Positions 27,126 through 60,631 of a DNA stretch of 64,000 bases are shown in pieces. How positions within the stretch are numbered: position 1 is the stretch's first letter; the number at the start of each line of letters is the position of its first letter. The notes beneath the pieces are model-generated. The model made no database searches. It was not told the origin of the DNA and saw only the letters and a list, made by a program, of their open reading frames with translations. This DNA is from Pilatotrama ljubarskyi (Eukaryota; Basidiomycota; Agaricomycetes; Polyporales; Polyporaceae), in NCBI GenBank assembly GCA_022385805.1, contig MU277678.1, positions 479,413 to 543,412 of the forward strand. Reading direction: 5' to 3'. The translations under genes and the position numbers were made by a program.

Positions 27126-29904
<2,779 letters not shown>

Positions 29905-30499
29905 GGCGGACGACGCGTAGAGGAGCGACGGGCGTGGAGGAGGAGGGAGAGAGAGAGACGTGCGTGTGACTGTGACAGGACGCGACGCGTCGTGGTCACT
30001 GCTCCCAGCTAAGCGCCCGCAGACTGGTTGGGCGCCTGTCGAGTTGCTCAGCTGACGGCGATCGTCTGGCTTCTCTGCGACCCTCCCTGGGCCCTGAGCT
30101 GCCTCACCTCCATAAAACACACGCTGGCTGGCTGTACATACTACTCTCACTGGTTCCCCTGGGCTTGATCTCTGTGCTCACATTTACGACGTTCTTGTAT
30201 ACGAACTTGGCACATCGCTCCTAACTCGCTCATCTCTCGCCTGGACGGACCTGCACTTCGTATCGGACGCGTTTCTCGTGGCCGAACATTTTGCAACAGG
30301 AGAGCAGGCCCAGAGCTACTGCATTAAGTGCGTGAAGTATGCTACGGCGTATCGCGAGCGCGTGCGTGTATGTCTGACTGGTCACAGCAGCTACAATCCT
30401 ATTGTTCTCAGGACAATTTGTAAGGGAACGCCGAATCGTAAGTCGCGACCGTCCCACTACTTTCATTCGAACGTATTCTGATAAGTGCTGCTCAGCAGG
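29905..30499. other. Divergent promoter between MCM7 and DNMT1 genes
   Basis: 595 bp, the longest of the nine divergent gaps. Apart from the ACGCGT boxes near MCM7, I see no coding stretch. The DNMT1 5' UTR may contain an intron, since several splice-like signals occur at 30430-30490, but this is unproven. Confidence 0.4.
29913..29990. promoter_or_regulatory. Two ACGCGT (MCB) boxes in the MCM7/DNMT1 promoter
   Basis: ACGCGT at 29913-29918 and 29985-29990, about 9 and 81 bp upstream of the MCM7 start. MCM genes are classical MBF targets in yeasts. A third copy at 29831-29836 lies in the first MCM7 intron. An effect on the divergent DNMT1 gene, some 500 bp away, is speculative. Confidence 0.45.
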
Positions 30500-33400
30500 A
30501 TGAAGCGGACTGTCGATAATCCGCGCACCGCGTCCCCGGCCAAGAAGCCAAGGACCGAGCAAGGTCAGTCAGTGGGCCCGCTTCTGGCCGGTCCGTGCAT
30601 TGCTGATCTCGCTTTGCAAGATGTGCAAGAAAAATGGCGAAGACCTAAGGCGACAGTATGGGTAGAAATTCCGAGCAGGGCAGCACGGTACGTCTATCAG
30701 AATCGCGGCCGGATGAAGCGCATTACTAATGTCGCAACAGGCCGCGTGGTAAGAGTGCTGTGTGGTTTCGACGGTAGTCGCGATAGTGAGCTTTAGGAGC
30801 AGATGTGGACGTGAACAGGTACTCACCCGTCGGAGACGAAGTTACGGAGAGCGCGGAGGTGCGCGTGACGGGCGAGACCGCGCCAGAAGAAGACGAGGAG
30901 GACGACGAGGTGCCCGTCCGTACGCTGGACGACTTCGCTGTGTTCGACCCCGAGACGCGCGAGTTTGTCACCTTTGAACGGCTTCTCGTGTCGAACGACA
31001 TGTCAGATTCAAGATGGGTCGCGGCGGGGACTGTTGGCGCATTTACTGAAGATTCTAGCGACGACTCCGATTCAGACGACGATAGCGACGATGAAGGGGA
31101 CGACGCTAACGACAACGTTGACGGCGCGGAGGTCGCTGACGGGGCTCAGCGACTCCTGCTGTCGACAGTACTCGAGTGTGACGCCCACTGGGTCTCGAAA
31201 CATGGCAGGACTTTCAGCATTGACTCGTAAGACTGTTTTTCTGTCTCTTCCCGGATCGTCTACTCATGTCTGCTGCAGGAGGATATATTTGCGAACCAAA
31301 TACGCGTGGTACATCCTACTCCGTCCATCCCCCTCATACCGGCGCTTTTACACCGCAGCCTGGAACCAACACCGTATAGTGCAAGGCCTCCTCTCGACTC
31401 TTACGCAGGACAGCCGGTCATCTCTCTCAGACGTATTGAAAGCAATCAATACTGCACCTGACGAGGGACATCCCACGCGACCGGCCTTCGACGCTCTCGC
31501 CGAACCTGTTTTCGACGAAGACCTGACTTCCGACGATTTGGTAAGTCGCGCAGTGTCTGCTTTCGGTCCTTCAATCTCTAACTGACACATCCATAGGTAT
31601 CATACCTCATCCACGTTCTGGACCGGCTGCAATACGACCACTCCTCGCTCTACCACAAGCTCGTCCACTCGAAGCTCATGCAGAGCCTCTATCCCACCGC
31701 CTGCGCCCGGAAGCCACCGACGTCGCCTCATCGTAAGCCTCTGAAGGTGTCGCGCGACATCGAGAAGGAGGTCCTGAAGCACCGGAACCCGACGTGCGTG
31801 ACCCCGCGCGTCAGCGCGGTCGCCCAGAAGCTCTTCGCGCAGGCGTTGCGCGTCGCGGACTTGTCGGAAGAGCCCGCCGACGAGACGCCGTCCGCGAACA
31901 AGGCGAGGCGCGTGCACGCCGTCGACCCGACGTCCATGGAGTGGGTGGAGGAGTCGATGATCAGGCCGGGCCATTACGGGAGCGTGCTCATCGATGGCGT
32001 CACTTATTCGGTAGGCGTCTTCGTCTGTGAAGGAGAGCGCGTCCCATACTTAACAGAGACTACGATGACAGGCCGGCGACGTTGTGATCGTCGAGCCGGG
32101 GCACGACCAACATAGTACCCGCGCTAAGAATGCGCGGTCGCAGCAGGCCCACTGTCGCGAGAACGCGCTCGCCGACACGAAGTGGTATGTGCCCCCGATA
32201 TCCGATGATATCTTGCGGCTTCTCACTATCTAGCAGGTTCTGCAAGATCGCGTACATGTTCGAAAAGCGCGACTCCTCCGGCCGGCGGAGGAAATACTTC
32301 CACGCGCGCTGGTTGCAGCATGGGTCTCAGACCCTGCTGCAGGAGGCGGCTCATCCTCGCATGCTCATGTGGCTCAATGAGTGCGAAGATCAGCCCATCG
32401 AGTGTATATACTCACTTTGCAACCTTGAAGAGTGGCCCGTCGGCGCACCGTCCCCTTCCGAAGATCCTACTGGCGACATGAACAGGTTCCACGTCGGGTG
32501 AGTATCCTGTAGTGATACAGTGGATATGACGAAGCTAAGTGCTCCCCATCTGTCAGGCTCACTTGGGACAGCGAGCACTGTTCGTTCGCTGAGACACCTG
32601 CTGAGGAGGTCGAGCGGGCGCTCGCCAAGTGCGAGCCCGGGAAGGAATGCGTCTCGTGCGGGCTTGCCTTTCTGCGAGACGAAAGCGAGTCTTGGAGCAC
32701 CTTGCCCGACGGCAATGGGGTTTCGCGCAGCGGCGTGGATTACCACGTCCATGACTTCGTCTACTTGCACACCCCGGGCTTGGTGGTCGGCCTTCTCAGC
32801 GTCGCGCAAATCATCGAGTTCATCGTCGACGATATGAAAGGCATCACTCACGTCAAGGTCAGGCACTACGGCCGCTATGATAGTGTGCTGGCGAAACATC
32901 GCGACCATGACGGCCCCACTCATTGGGATAATGTGCGTGCACCTTCGACCTAGTGGGATGCAAACTGACCATACCTTGCAGCGGAGGCTATTTCAGTCTG
33001 AAGTTTACACGAGTGTCAAGCCAGCGTGCATATCTGGGAAGGCCTACGTCGCATGTCCCCCATCTGCGCGGGAAGTCGAGGACTTCGTCAAGCAGGACAA
33101 CCATTTCTACTGTGATCTCCAGGCAGAGTCTCTCAGTGTACAGTCTCTGGACGACCTGGAGAGACTCTCAGGGGGTATCAGCCAGTGTGACCTCTGTTGC
33201 ACTGCTGTAATGGAAGCAGCCCTTGAGAGTGATCGCCTTGTATGGACTCATGGTCGCCTGAGGGGTCTTGAGTTGTTTGCCGGTGAGTGACTTGTGAAGA
33301 GGTATCCTACGTGTACTGTGCCTAATTGTGAGTTAGGTGCTGGTGGCCTCTCAACAGGTCTGGAGATGTCTGGCTGCGTCCATACACAGTGGGCAGTTGA

Positions 33401-35480
33401 GTTCTCGCCAAGTGCGGCGAGGACATACAAGTGGGACTACCATTCTCCTCTCTCAGATATTCTTCTCATGGTTATCTTGTGGCAGGGCCAATCACCCAGG
33501 CACCATTGTGTACAACCAGTGCACAAATAAGCTCCTCGAGCATGCCATCCAAAGGGCAAAGGGCTACCCTCCAAGGCCGCTGAAGTCACTTGATGACGGT
33601 GAAGGCGAACTTCCTCCTATGCCTGAACCTGGTGATGTCGACTTCATCTATGGTGGTAAGTGCTATCAGTGCATTGTCTGCCTGACTCCATGCTGAAAAT
33701 ACTGGCAATTCAGGTCCTCCTTGTCAGAGCTTTTCTCTGATGAATCACTGTCGAGTGAGTTATCACTTCCCAACTCAGTATCATGCTTTTTACAAGCCAT
33801 CACATATAGAAAGCAGATGACATCAGGTATAGCCCATGCTTCTTATGACCATGTTGATTTACTCAGCATGCTTACAGGAGTACACTTGTCTGCAACATGA
33901 TCTCATATGTTGAGTTTTACAGACCCATGTACTTTCTGCTTGAGAATGTGGTCGGAATGCTGTCCTACCGTGTTGGAGGCCAACAGCATGGAAACCGGGT
34001 AGTAGGAGGCATTAGCATGGGTGTGGTGAAGTTTATACTGGCCTCACTCACCATCCTTGGGTGAGTGATTCTGTTGATTGGTGATGGGAGAAGTCAGGAC
34101 ACCAGCAGATGCATTCAGCTATCAAGTCCATTTTCGGGTACTACAAGCTGGTCAACATGGTGCACCGCAAGGGAGAAGACGTGTCATCTTTTTGGGTGCT
34201 CGTCGGGGAGTCCCTCTTCCTGATTTTCCTCTTCCCCAGTACGCCTTCAAATCCCTTGTTCACAATGTGCACCTGTCCACTGGTGAAACCTTGTACCCAA
34301 TGACCTACATGGGAGCTGATCAAGATGGGCATCAATGTGCTCCACTGCCTGCTGTCACAGTTATGGAGGCCATCAGTGACTTGGTATGTTTGTTTTGCTA
34401 TTTCAGTGCCTGCTCGCTCAACTGTTCTTTGTCACCCAGCCTAGGTTTGACTGGTGAGTTTGGAGTATATCAGCCTGTCCAGATACTCAAATTTCGCCGT
34501 AGGATTGACCCCCATATCAAGAAACGAGCTACAAAACAAGATCTTGAAGAGATCGGGAGTCGCCTTGCAGAAGGCATATCTCGCTTCAGTGCCTGCAAGC
34601 CTTCTTCACATGCTCCTCCACCTGGCTATCATCATGCAGTTCTCTATGCCCAGCCTCCCCTGAGCCGCTATCAGAGCTGGGTCAGAGCAGGCAATGGGAG
34701 CACTGTTCTTTATCACTACACCAGTTGGTGTGCTCCAGGTGTTGTTGAGAGGTGAGCTTCCTTGCCTGGGTCATTGCTGCAGATTATATGGCTAAGTCAT
34801 GGATGTATAGGGTGGTCAATGTTCCCATCAAACCTGATGCTGGACATCAAGGTATCTTTTGCATATGTGGACAACGTAAATCAGACTTGACATCTTCTGG
34901 CCAGATCTTCCTTTGCAGCTCAGGGTGCCGCATCTTTATGATGCAGTTACAGGGCAGCCAAAGAAGGCCTACAACAGTATGTGGAAATCCACTTGAGCTT
35001 ATTGCCTGTCTCAACCATGCCATAGCTGTGTATGGCAGAATCAATGGCTCTGGGCAGTTTGTCACTGCCATGACAACACTTGCACCCAATGCTAAGGGTG
35101 GCAGGGTTTTGCATCCTGATGTGAGTGAACTGCAGGTGTATATGGGACATTACTCTGACAGAGCTTACAGCAAAAGAGAATTCTTACAATCAGGGAATGC
35201 GCAAGAGCACAGGGTTTTCCTGATTCATACAAATTTCTCTCTGTGAACAAAAAGACCAATGATATTGTTGCAGATGTAAGTCTCATCCTCTGGTTAGCAA
35301 GGGATGCAAATTCATTCCCTGACACATTGGCAGCAAATGAGGCAGATAGGGAATGCAGTACCAGTGCCACTTGGACTGGCATTGGGAAAGGAGGTTGGGA
35401 AGGCCCTGTGTAGGTTGTGGAGGCATCAGGAAGAACAAGGACTCAGAGAGAGGGCCAGGAGCCCAGAGATACCACAGTAG
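30500..35480 (+). CDS. DNMT1: DNMT1-type DNA (cytosine-5) methyltransferase
   Basis: Nuclear cytosine methyltransferase with the DNMT1 domain order. A short basic N-terminus (KRTVDNPRTASPAKKPR) splices to an acidic replication-foci-targeting domain (about 30800-31500, including YAWYILLRPSPSYRRFYTAAW). Two BAH domains follow (31930-32450 and 32730-33130). The catalytic domain starts after 33230 with motif I LFAGAGGLSTGLE split by an intron, motif IV with the catalytic cysteine PPCQSFSLMNHCR, motif VI LLENVVGML, motif VIII LQAGQHGAPQGRRRVIF, a QGFPDSYKF block, and motif X QIGNAVPVPLGLALGKEV. The stop TAG is at 35478-35480. At least 15 introns. All core motifs are intact, so it is probably active. 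No CXXC zinc finger was seen. The catalytic half has far fewer CpGs than the rest of the window. Confidence 0.92.
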
Positions 35481-35590
35481 TACACAGACAGATACTTGAA
35501 GAATTACACACATACCAGCTAGACTCAGCATAGACATTCCAGACTTCCAAATCATGTGTTGGTATGCTTCTACTTATGCAACATTAATAC
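33661..35590. other. CpG-depleted tract inside the DNMT1 gene
   Basis: By hand I count 21 CpG in 33661-35580 (1920 bp), and only 3 in 34741-35580 (840 bp). For contrast, 31681-31800 in the same gene has 15 in 120 bp. TG and CA dinucleotides are abundant in the depleted tract. CpGs return abruptly at about 35655, in the neighbouring gene. Confidence 0.85.
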
Positions 35591-35609
35591 ATGTATCACA
35601 TCAGGACCC

Positions 35610-36280
35610 TTATGTTGAGTGAGTGGAGTGCCTGCCATCCCTTGCAAGGATTTCCTCGACACGCTTCACCTTACCCTCATTTCCCGTCCCCGGTGCGATT
35701 TCACGGTCTACACGGGTACCAATGCGGATGTCCGTGGCAATGCGGGGTGCACCCTTTGCATGTACTGCCGCATGGCAGGCATGGATGGCTTGCATGACTT
35801 CTGTCCATGGTCCTTCTGTCGAAGATCTGTGAGATATACCGAGAAACAGAGATGTGAGGCGACACACCGAGGTTGGTGCCGTATCCGCTGTCGGCGCATC
35901 GTGATAGGCCATTCAACTGCGAAGCCGCAGTAGTATACCAGTAGACACTCACTGCATCTGTAGCGAGCGGTCGGTGAGAGGGGTCGCACTCGATCAGCAC
36001 GCAATCTGTTCTTACTTTGAACTTCAGACCAGTCTTCTCGAGGACGCGCACACATTCCGCGACATATTCGGCGACCTGAAACGGCGCGCTTACTTGAGCA
36101 TACACTCCAGCCCGCATCGTCCTTTCATCCTTACAGATGGTTCAGCGGTGCCCATCGGGACAAGGCAGAAGTCTGTCCGTACGAAGTCAACGCTGGGTGA
36201 TACGGTAAGCGAAACACATTGCCCGCGCGCGTACCTGCGACAGCATACAAATCTCCAGACGAGGCCGTCCCCTGTGACAT
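35610..36280 (-). CDS. ECM15: Ecm15/MTH1187-like thiamine-binding protein
   Basis: Small protein of the MTH1187/YkoF family (UPF0045), whose members bind thiamine-like ligands; the physiological role is not settled. Six exons are needed: 36235-36280, 36135-36172, 36016-36075, a 5-nt exon 35953-35957, a 20-nt exon 35868-35887 and 35610-35815. They sum to 375 nt, giving 124 residues. The product reads DFCLVPMGTAEPS, VAEYVAECVRVLEKTGLKFK, MHGYGTNLEGPWTEVMQAIH, and APRIATDIRIGTRVDR, which are the successive family blocks with nothing missing. The length slightly exceeds the usual ~100 residues because of the tail ending HSTHST. It is divergent from the ARMC8 gene by 321 bp, and converges on DNMT1 with about 130 bp between stops. 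Confidence 0.85.
35953..35957 (-). other. 5-nt micro-exon (ATGCA) of the Ecm15-like gene
   Basis: In the sense direction it is preceded by CGCTACAG and followed by GTGAGTGTC. It supplies Met and two bases of His in the invariant MHGYGTNLE block, joining FK (exon 3, phase 0) to the 20-nt exon starting CGGATACGG. Flanking introns are 58 nt (35958-36015) and 65 nt (35888-35952). Confidence 0.75.
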
Positions 36281-57809: not shown

Positions 57810-60631
57810 TCAGGGCGCGATGCCCAGCATCTCCTTCTTCGATGCGATTTCGTCCTTGAGCATTGCGATCCTGCTGTCCAAGCGCGAAGACAGGTCGACC
57901 TGCTGTGTCGCAAGCGACAAGGCCTTGTCCAGCTTGTCGACCGCGCCCTTGAGGACGCGTGCCCACTCCTCCGTATCCGCGCCGAGCCCGACCATCGTGC
58001 TCGACGAGGAACGCGCCTCCATCTCCTTCAGGTCGAGCACGGCATGCTCGAACCATGTGACACCGCCCACCCAGGTGCTCACCTTGACGGTCGAGTGCCG
58101 CACTTCGGCATCCTCCAGGAAAGCGCGGGAACCAGCGTAGTCGCCTGCTGTGCGGTGGACGATGCCCAGCAGCAGCGAGCGGATGGCCAGCTCGTCCGGG
58201 GTGTCTGCGACGTTCTGCGCCTCGGCAGGCTCCGTCGAAGGGACGTGCTCTTTGAGGAGCGCTGTCTTGATAGTCGGGGGCGGGTTCAAGCAGGTGGCCC
58301 AGTCTTTGAGATGTGCAACGGCAGCCTCCTTGGTGATGCGTGCATGTGTGTTCCAGACTAGCATCCATGTGAGCCAGTATGTCAGAGGTACAGTCAAATA
58401 CAACTTACAGATACCAAGCTCTGTAGCAAATCCATCATGCATGGTTAGTGAAGTCCTGTGAGATGGTCTACCTACGCACCTTCTGCTGGACTGATCTTCA
58501 CCGCATGCGCATAGTTGTCCTCAGATCCAGTTAGAGCGGCCTGCTTCTCCTTGTAGAACGCCACTGAACATGCCATTGATCAGAACTCGCGCATGTCAGG
58601 CCTGAATGTGGGACGCACATTTCTTCTTGATGAAGACTTCAGTGGGCAGATCCTTGCCACCGATCTTCTTCTTCTCAATGAGCTCTGGAATATGGTCAAG
58701 CAGCTTTTGTGCCTTCTCGTAGTTCTTCAGGGAGATGTGGCAGCCAGCAGCTATGAAGTAATATGTAGCGTGACTCCTGCGAGGAGAAAAAGGGAATCAG
58801 CGGATCTGGGTAACGGAATTTGACTACACTGGTCTGACCAGCTGTTGATCTCTGTCACACGGATGAACGCGTCGGCAGCCTCTTGGTAACGCCTTTGAGA
58901 CAAGAGCGTCCATGCGAGTTCAAAGATTAGCTTGGTATAGAAAGTCAGGCAACGGATTACCGCTAAGACATGGCCGTTGCTCACCAGACCATCCGCTTGT
59001 GCGAACGTATGCGGCCGACCGGGCTTCAAACCCTCCTGCAAGACGTTAATCGCACCATCGGGGTCATACGACATGCGAAGAATTTTCGCCTGCGGATGCA
59101 GACCAGTCGTTAGAGGCCAGGGGGTATTGGCTCATCTTCCAGAGCTACTCACCCGGTTCAAAATCCAGAGCGAGCCCGTGGGATACCGGGACTCCAACCT
59201 AATCGAAGCTGTGAGCATCGCGGAGACGGACCAATGGGAGGATGCGAACTTGTCGACAATTGCCCGATACTGCTTGATTATGTGCGCCTCGTTTGCTTGA
59301 TACCCGGACAGCAAGAGGACAACGCCATAGTAGGTCATTAGTGACAACCTGTGGACACGCATGAAATCAGGTCCATTCAAATATTAAGTTGGCTTGAGGG
59401 ACGGTGCGCAGCATACCCTGCGAATACAGCATGCACATCGGTCTTGGCGGCTGACACGGCCAGTGCTTGTAGTGCAAGTTTCCTGTCGTGGTTGAACCCA
59501 AGGAACCCGACCACGCCCCTGGACAACCAATGAGATGAACGAGTTCGAGATCACGAAGTCATTTGAGTTTACATACCGTATCTTTGCAGGGAGCAAGGAG
59601 AACACGAGGTTGAAAAGTCTACAGGACTCTCAGGAGTAAGGGAAGACCGAGCCCGACGAGGTTGAGAGTAAACCCACCCGTATCCTAGTTGGTCTCATGA
59701 GCGACGGCAATCTCACCAGGTGCGTAAATGGCCTACCAAAAGCGGTCCCGGACAGAATGAGCTCATCTATAGAGCCTTCCTCCGCGACTATCGGAGCCTG
59801 AGGGGTAGTCGGTGCGCTCAAAGCAGCGCCTGTAAAGCGGCTGAAGAAGCCGGATTTGGCGGGCTTGAGAGCGGTCGGTTGTGAGCTTGAGCCGGAGGCT
59901 TCCGACCGGATGCTTGCAGCGCGAGAATTAGCGGTGGACGCGGCCGGTGTCGCGTAGTTCTGAAGGCCGTTGGGATACACAGTCTTATACAACCTGCAGA
60001 AGAGGGTGTCAAACTCTACTGATCACGTTCGGCATGGAACGTGCGCACTTGGAGAATTTGGAATGAGCGCTGCAAGATTCTTGTCAATGCTTAGATGTTG
60101 CTATGTGTGACTATGTGCGCACCTATTCATAGCATACAGGCACTGCAAATAACCCATATACGACTCGCTGGAACACGCAGAAGGATGAGCGGCGTCGGAC
60201 AGCGAACTCAGCGGCGCGACTTACCTGAGGGCGTGGGTGAGCCCAAGAAGAATCACGGCATCCGAGTGGAGGAGTTCCCATTCTGTTCCCGGAGGAAACT
60301 GGGTGGTCTTGTCGGACGACTTTGCCAGCTTCAGCTGCTTCTTTGCGCCAGCCTCCGCGAGAGCAAGGAGACGAGAAGCCTCGGTCATCAGACCCGTCTA
60401 CGGAGATTGCGGGAGACGTAAGATGAGATGTTATCAGACAATAGACGTGCATACCTCCATTCCGAGGGCGGCCTCGAGAAAAGCGCATACACCGAGACCG
60501 AGGGAGTGGAAGGGCGAAACGCCGTTGGCGAAGGTCTCGCGGGCTTTCTCGAGCTCGTTGGCAAACAGCCAATCGAAACCAGTAGTGGCGGCGCGCAACT
60601 GCGCCGCCGTGTCCTGCGGAGAAGCAGCCAT
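57810..60631 (-). CDS. IML2: IML2/TTC39-family protein
   Basis: TPR-like helical protein of the TTC39 family; yeast Iml2 is linked to mitochondria and lipid-droplet homeostasis. The start at 60631 gives [20 protein letters not shown], then [20 protein letters not shown] and [19 protein letters not shown], which are the family's N-terminal repeat. Further exons give [100 protein letters not shown] and [21 protein letters not shown] serine/alanine-rich insert around 59815-59990 separates repeats. The last exon (57810-58440) is a long helical domain ending KKEMLGIAP. At least ten introns. Divergent from the EH-domain gene by 252 bp. A start nine codons upstream is possible but has poorer fit. 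Confidence 0.8.

Follow-up and report, generated by a model that had tools for sequence, protein, structure and literature searches.

Loss of CpG inside both DNMT1 genes of Pilatotrama ljubarskyi suggests that these methyltransferase genes have been targets of their own mark

Why has the catalytic half of a DNA methyltransferase gene lost most of its CpG dinucleotides? This question is raised by a locus of the wood-decay polypore Pilatotrama ljubarskyi, in a stretch of 64,000 nucleotides (C9:479413-543412 in the 33.1-Mb assembly) that was analysed whole and is called the window here. A preliminary description had proposed that the 3' half of the gene was methylated over evolutionary time, possibly in an autoregulatory loop, and had named a foreign origin of the catalytic half as the alternative. 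The main new result of this study is a second DNMT1 gene with a depleted tract of its own. Together, the two loci suggest that the DNMT1 genes of this fungus have themselves received the mark, possibly as a way of holding the enzymes in check.

The gene in the window, gene A, has the domain order RFD, two BAH stretches and catalytic domain. The features of the locus are:

30500..35480, plus strand: gene A, a DNMT1/Masc2-type DNA (cytosine-5) methyltransferase (exon model, Pfam, public protein P0001)
30500..33086, plus strand: gene A ahead of the tract, CpG-normal, comprising the RFD and most of the BAH region (exon and intron o/e, 400-bp bins)
33087..35657, no strand: CpG-depleted tract of gene A (likelihood scan, dinucleotide counts, simulated null)
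33267..35440, plus strand, approximate limits read by eye: catalytic domain of gene A, the whole of which lies within the depleted tract
35481..35657, no strand: portion of the depleted tract past the gene A stop codon (exon model and likelihood scan)

The reading frame of gene A is intact over the 21 exons of our model, and its introns from exon 2 onward measure 37-61 bp. The model protein has 1244 aa, or 1237 aa once exon 14 is corrected to 34119-34383. The public protein P0001 (1260 aa) has one additional short exon piece near the N-terminus, and differs from the model in 23 residues there and in the exon 14 acceptor. The Pfam DNA_methylase match begins at model residue 734. Head to head with gene A, on the minus strand at 28907-30500 of the window, lies an MCM-type replication helicase ORF (MCM_OB, E 1.6e-18); its start was read by eye near 29.9-30.0 kb, and a short promoter region may be common to both genes.

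The likelihood scan delimits a tract of 2571 bp, beginning at residue 676 of the protein, that holds 35 CpG (o/e 0.23) where roughly 150-160 are expected by arithmetic. TpG and CpA are in excess, with o/e of 1.44 and 1.59. The preliminary description is confirmed, although the tract starts about 570 bp earlier than it held, and the end lies 177 bp past the stop codon at 35480, slightly beyond the 100 bp or so that it gave. Its three CpG counts were exact on recount (21 in 33661-35580, o/e 0.20; 3 in the final 840 bp of that interval, o/e 0.07; 15 in 31681-31800), and TpG and CpA are as plentiful as it reported (o/e 1.43 and 1.65 in 33661-35580). Exons and introns are both depleted, again as described, with o/e of 0.27 and 0.15 in the tract compared with 1.21 and 0.95 upstream of about 33150. 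DNA on either side of the tract is CpG-normal, and so is the promoter region.

Chance as the origin of the tract was ruled out by simulation and by background windows. The tract scores 136.5, compared with a maximum of 12.3 among 100 order-2 Markov simulations of 64 kb. The comparison of CpG o/e with other DNA, which the preliminary description had put forward as a check, gave a mean of 1.07 (sd 0.11) over 824 overlapping 1-kb background windows, none of which fell below 0.72. This background, 222.9 kb in all or about 0.7% of the genome, consisted of the window without starts at 32201-35700 and of 16 out of 20 sampled ten-kb stretches, the other four carrying the two other methyltransferase loci. 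Only 1-kb windows in which at most 100 bases were masked entered the count. One background region contains a CpG-poor segment of 355 bp (3 CpG, score 22.6), which is a minimum length since a masked run interrupts it. The second most CpG-poor patch of the window, at 58282-58769, scores 14.6, slightly over the simulated maximum, and lies in minus-strand ORFs adjoining a weak Iml2/TPR-39 match, which at 21.2 bits falls short of the cut-off of 22.2.

A six-frame family search of the genome returned four C5-methyltransferase matches, in three genes. One of the three is:

C32:75894-80485: gene B, a second intact DNMT1 gene with 17 exons and 1241 aa, carrying RFD, BAH and catalytic domains

Its public protein, P0085, has 1238 aa and is listed at 100% identity, with the RFD at residues 100-232 and the catalytic domain at 756-1218. 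All introns of gene B are 46-66 bp long. An apparent GC-AG intron occurs at C32:77546-77599, and using it keeps the frame and matches the public protein model. The depleted tract of gene B, C32:76565-79677, holds 51 CpG in 3113 bp (o/e 0.27), with its introns at only 0.05. It spans residues 190-1051, and thus begins inside the RFD and ends inside the catalytic domain; CpG is abundant in the final 190 codons and in the promoter region. The tracts of the two genes therefore differ in limits and extent. PF12047, PF01426 and PF00145 each exceed the Pfam cut-off in both proteins, and the catalytic motifs are visible by reading. By domains and tree, genes A and B belong to the DNMT1/Masc2 maintenance methyltransferases, for which maintenance CG activity is predicted. 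With both frames intact, a pseudogene reading was ruled out.

The two genes are old paralogs. Their proteins are 32% identical, and no blastn match joins their DNA at E 1e-3. In a tree of 30 rows (28 DNMT1 proteins and 2 outgroup rows, hand-selected from 203 found) they fall into two clades, each with 100/100 support and each with polypores, boletes, Russulales and agarics among its members. The tracts are therefore not a recent duplication carried along, and the genes are now too different to be recognised as repeats of one another.

Identity to orthologs bears on the foreign origin named in the preliminary description, in which the catalytic half would come from a CpG-poor genome by transfer or gene conversion. 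The fairly abrupt change of composition within gene A is what such an event would leave. However, identity to the Trametes cingulata ortholog is 70% for the N part, 73% for the BAH region and 74% for the tract, so the tract is as similar as the parts upstream of it; it is also the best-conserved part against the other nine orthologs compared, except for a near-identical public copy of gene A. The excess is moreover specific to TpG and CpA, and the gene B tract has other limits, ending within the catalytic domain. A foreign origin is thus scarcely credible, and within the sampled orthologs region-wise identity rules it out. Fungal DNMT1 DNA was not found among the best 80 of at least 563 relatives in a genome contig collection, all 80 being prokaryotic-titled, nor was any recognisable among 69 loci in viral contigs, where identity was at most 50%.

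Third codon bases, split by sequence context and compared outside and inside each tract, served as an internal control for the cause of the depletion. Before G, third-base C falls from 0.52 to 0.06 in gene A and from 0.42 to 0.04 in gene B, while third-base T climbs to 0.50 in A (from 0.14) and to 0.55 in B (from 0.18), with Fisher p of 3e-30 and 2e-24, respectively. Third-base G after second-position C falls likewise, from 0.36 to 0.05 in A and from 0.37 to 0.06 in B. Third-base C not before G stands at 0.34 outside and 0.33 inside in A and at 0.35 and 0.42 in B, and third-base C outside CpG contexts is nearly constant (A 0.37 and 0.34; B 0.39 and 0.41).

These counts also bear on a regional drift in GC, or selection on codons or mRNA, acting without methylation. 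The drop in GC from 58% in the window to 48% in the gene A tract is what such drift would give, and gene A third-base G outside CpG contexts also drops, from 0.39 to 0.30. With a slight difference in third-base C:T not before G (p 0.045), a small general non-CpG drift is present in this gene. The near constancy of third-base C outside CpG contexts, the stronger depletion in introns than in exons, and products that are TpG and CpA make this explanation very improbable all the same, and the context-split counts rule it out as the main cause.

Arginine codons speak to the duration of the process. Arginine makes up 6.8% of residues in the later part of gene A and 6.9% in the earlier part, while AGR codons account for 24 of 37 arginines in the tract and 11 of 48 elsewhere. 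At 15 arginine columns invariant across 14 gene A orthologs, AGR is used at 8 of 11 in the tract and at 1 of 4 upstream. In gene B the AGR shift is not strong (10/37 in the tract, 5/39 elsewhere). Since deamination alone cannot turn CGN into AGR, the pressure on gene A lasted long enough for other substitutions to occur, and such a shift at constant arginine content requires long exposure.

A further explanation to weigh is a RIP-like burst of C-to-T change at CpG at a time when extra gene copies, since lost, existed. There is precedent for it, in that Ganoderma repeats are described as showing RIP-like change biased to CpG (PMC4457147, excerpt) and fungal DNA methyltransferase genes can be RIP targets, for example dim2 of Zymoseptoria (PMC8016269, excerpt). 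In our case, tract A is now single copy, the genome search having returned only its own match, and A and B have no blastn-detectable DNA in common. Both frames are intact, the arginine content is unchanged, and the AGR shift requires substitutions besides C to T. With o/e of 0.63 in tract A and 0.54 in tract B, TpA is not raised above its level elsewhere in the window (0.71), and this speaks against classic CpA-type RIP. A burst of this kind is therefore improbable. The substitution pattern is best matched by methylated CpG decaying gradually while purifying selection acted, and long-term CG methylation inside both DNMT1 genes very probably caused the CpG decay. The methylation proposed in the preliminary description is in this respect well supported, as the change is largely in CpG context, synonymous or intronic, and yields TpG and CpA, and the second DNMT1 gene behaves alike. 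A CpG-depleted body with a spared promoter region, the combination that serves as a criterion of gene-body methylation, is found in both genes A and B.

Other loci show how far this decay extends. On contig C10, the third methyltransferase gene shows an SNF2 match after its methylase match, as reported for the Rad8/DNMT5 class (in extracts of PMC5073141 and PMC7862722), and is CpG-normal. So are the five loci read among SRA (2 of 3 places) and Argonaute (3 of 4 places) matches. An RNA-dependent RNA polymerase match (PF05183, G000:C9:428878-431426) has seven stops in its main matched stretch, which may reflect introns or a broken copy. The cores of 15 RVT_2 loci, read from 30 matches, have o/e of 0.62-1.42, and four short RVT_1 stretches, from 5 of 52 matches chosen for internal stops, have 0.74, 0.51, 1.04 and 0.56. 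In the own-genome DNA examined, the strongest CpG-poor segments after the DNMT1 genes are linked to transposons (scores 60.7, 41.8 and 39.2 at loci L038, L196 and L032). The first of these, L038:1-1001 on contig C129, has 10 CpG in 1001 bp, adjoins a copia-type reverse transcriptase match and ends at the locus end. The similar decay at transposon-linked loci supports methylation as the cause, and would be foreseen if the mark that silences transposons were responsible. The DNMT1 genes show the deepest depletion in the sampled DNA, and L038 the deepest outside them; a gene that cannot be lost may accumulate change for longer than a transposon copy.

Decay at transposons also lends itself to another account, in which the tracts belong to a set of genes marked by transposon-silencing machinery (spreading, small RNAs or a MIP-like process) or by ordinary gene-body methylation, without regulatory role, both DNMT1 genes being included by chance or indirectly. 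In Pleurotus, 163 and 365 genes are reported as body-methylated, ascribed largely to spreading from transposons (PMC6627472, in part). The unequal extent of tracts A and B is in keeping with such marking, and so is a background sample of only 222.9 kb: with about 0.7% of the genome sampled, other genes may carry tracts as well. On the other hand, tract A is single copy with CpG-normal DNA on both sides, and no window among the 824 of the background resembles it. If the tract rate is set at its 95% upper limit, 3 tracts in 222.9 kb, with a target of 8 kb for each gene, arithmetic gives a p of about 0.01 for a double hit on both DNMT1 genes, or about 0.03 if the interrupted 355-bp segment is taken as a further tract. 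Two Pleurotus species are described as having hardly any body methylation in common (PMC6627472, in part), and both tracts imply long persistence. Passive marking is a possibility to be taken seriously, although we hold it somewhat doubtful.

The leading functional idea is that the mark has been retained for regulation and acts as negative feedback. CG methylation would have lain inside the transcribed bodies of both DNMT1/Masc2 genes, in the germ line, over long evolutionary time, turning methylated CpGs into TpG and CpA wherever the protein permitted, with selection preserving both enzymes. At times of high methylating capacity, methylation would extend to the catalytic part of the gene; elongation or mRNA yield would then be lowered, and less full-length enzyme made. 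What the two paralogs offer directly is CpG-specific decay in both, intact frames and CpG-normal promoter regions. That both DNMT1 genes are affected, with promoters spared and adjoining DNA untouched, points to some property of the genes themselves or of what they encode, and the DNMT5/Rad8-type gene and the sampled ordinary genes are free of such tracts. The unequal extent of the two tracts counts against feedback, as do the small non-CpG drift in gene A and a sample covering about 0.7% of the genome, and so does the report that in two Pleurotus species a methylated gene body is common to only 1 of 4452 ortholog pairs (PMC6627472, in part). It is thus reasonable to regard feedback as plausible, at somewhat less than an even chance, and to treat the composite statement, long-term body methylation of both DNMT1 genes kept as self-limiting control, with the same reserve. 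More speculative, and on present evidence rather unlikely, is a general coding-sequence "methylstat", whereby agaricomycete maintenance CG methyltransferase genes would be stable targets of their own mark and body methylation of the catalytic part would meter full-length enzyme, in two anciently separated paralogs, persisting though the mark mutates its own gene.

In fungi, 5mC is described chiefly as marking transposons, gene-body methylation having been largely lost because it mutates coding DNA (PMC13297926, excerpt). If both DNMT1 genes are long-standing targets within their bodies, they would offer a rare example from fungi in which body methylation is retained despite its cost, and a natural feedback circuit on maintenance methyltransferase dose that can be read from genome sequence alone. 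The reading is directly testable in existing genomes and methylomes of cultivable mushrooms. Among the open-licence literature matches listed, none reported that fungal DNMT1 genes are CpG-depleted or self-methylated.

Some parallels come from plants. Arabidopsis IBM1 is presented as a gene with an intronic heterochromatin sensor (PMC11265718, excerpt). As in IBM1, the gene considered here is an epigenetic regulator, with a probable mark inside its body, and the IBM1 mark affects expression of the part encoding the catalytic domain. However, the mark of IBM1 occupies a single large intron, where it favours the full-length isoform, and the enzyme it acts on is a demethylase, whereas here the introns are about 50 bp, exons are affected, the enzyme itself writes the mark, and methylation is deduced from base composition. 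A large IBM1-type intron upstream of the catalytic exons is absent from both genes (37-61 bp from exon 2 in A, 46-66 bp in B). Arabidopsis ROS1 carries a methylation monitoring sequence, or methylstat (PMC8175986, excerpt), and likewise belongs to the methylation system while being methylated itself, as our genes appear to have been. The ROS1 sequence is a 39-bp promoter element of a demethylase gene, unlike the coding body affected here; the promoter regions of A and B are without CpG loss, and a ROS1-type element without depletion would escape such a test.

Closer to hand, methylated transposons of basidiomycetes show C-to-T change specific to CpG, for which either methylation by Masc2-like enzymes with deamination or RIP acting at CpG is held responsible (PMC4352252; PMC4457147, in the passages available). 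That decay is described for repeats; here the target is a single-copy Masc2-type gene, kept intact. Zymoseptoria dim2 offers another fungal DNA methyltransferase gene with mutations of the genome-defence type, where RIP, set off by additional copies, destroyed the gene (PMC8016269, excerpt); our search found no such copy, our gene remains intact, and its change is specific to CpG. Gene-body CG methylation is known in plants, animals and some mushrooms (PMC13297926; PMC6627472, excerpts), and the present genes resemble it in that the body is affected, the promoter region is spared and CpG is depleted. Those sources describe it as largely lost in fungi and hardly common to Pleurotus species, whereas here both genes of one enzyme family are deeply depleted.
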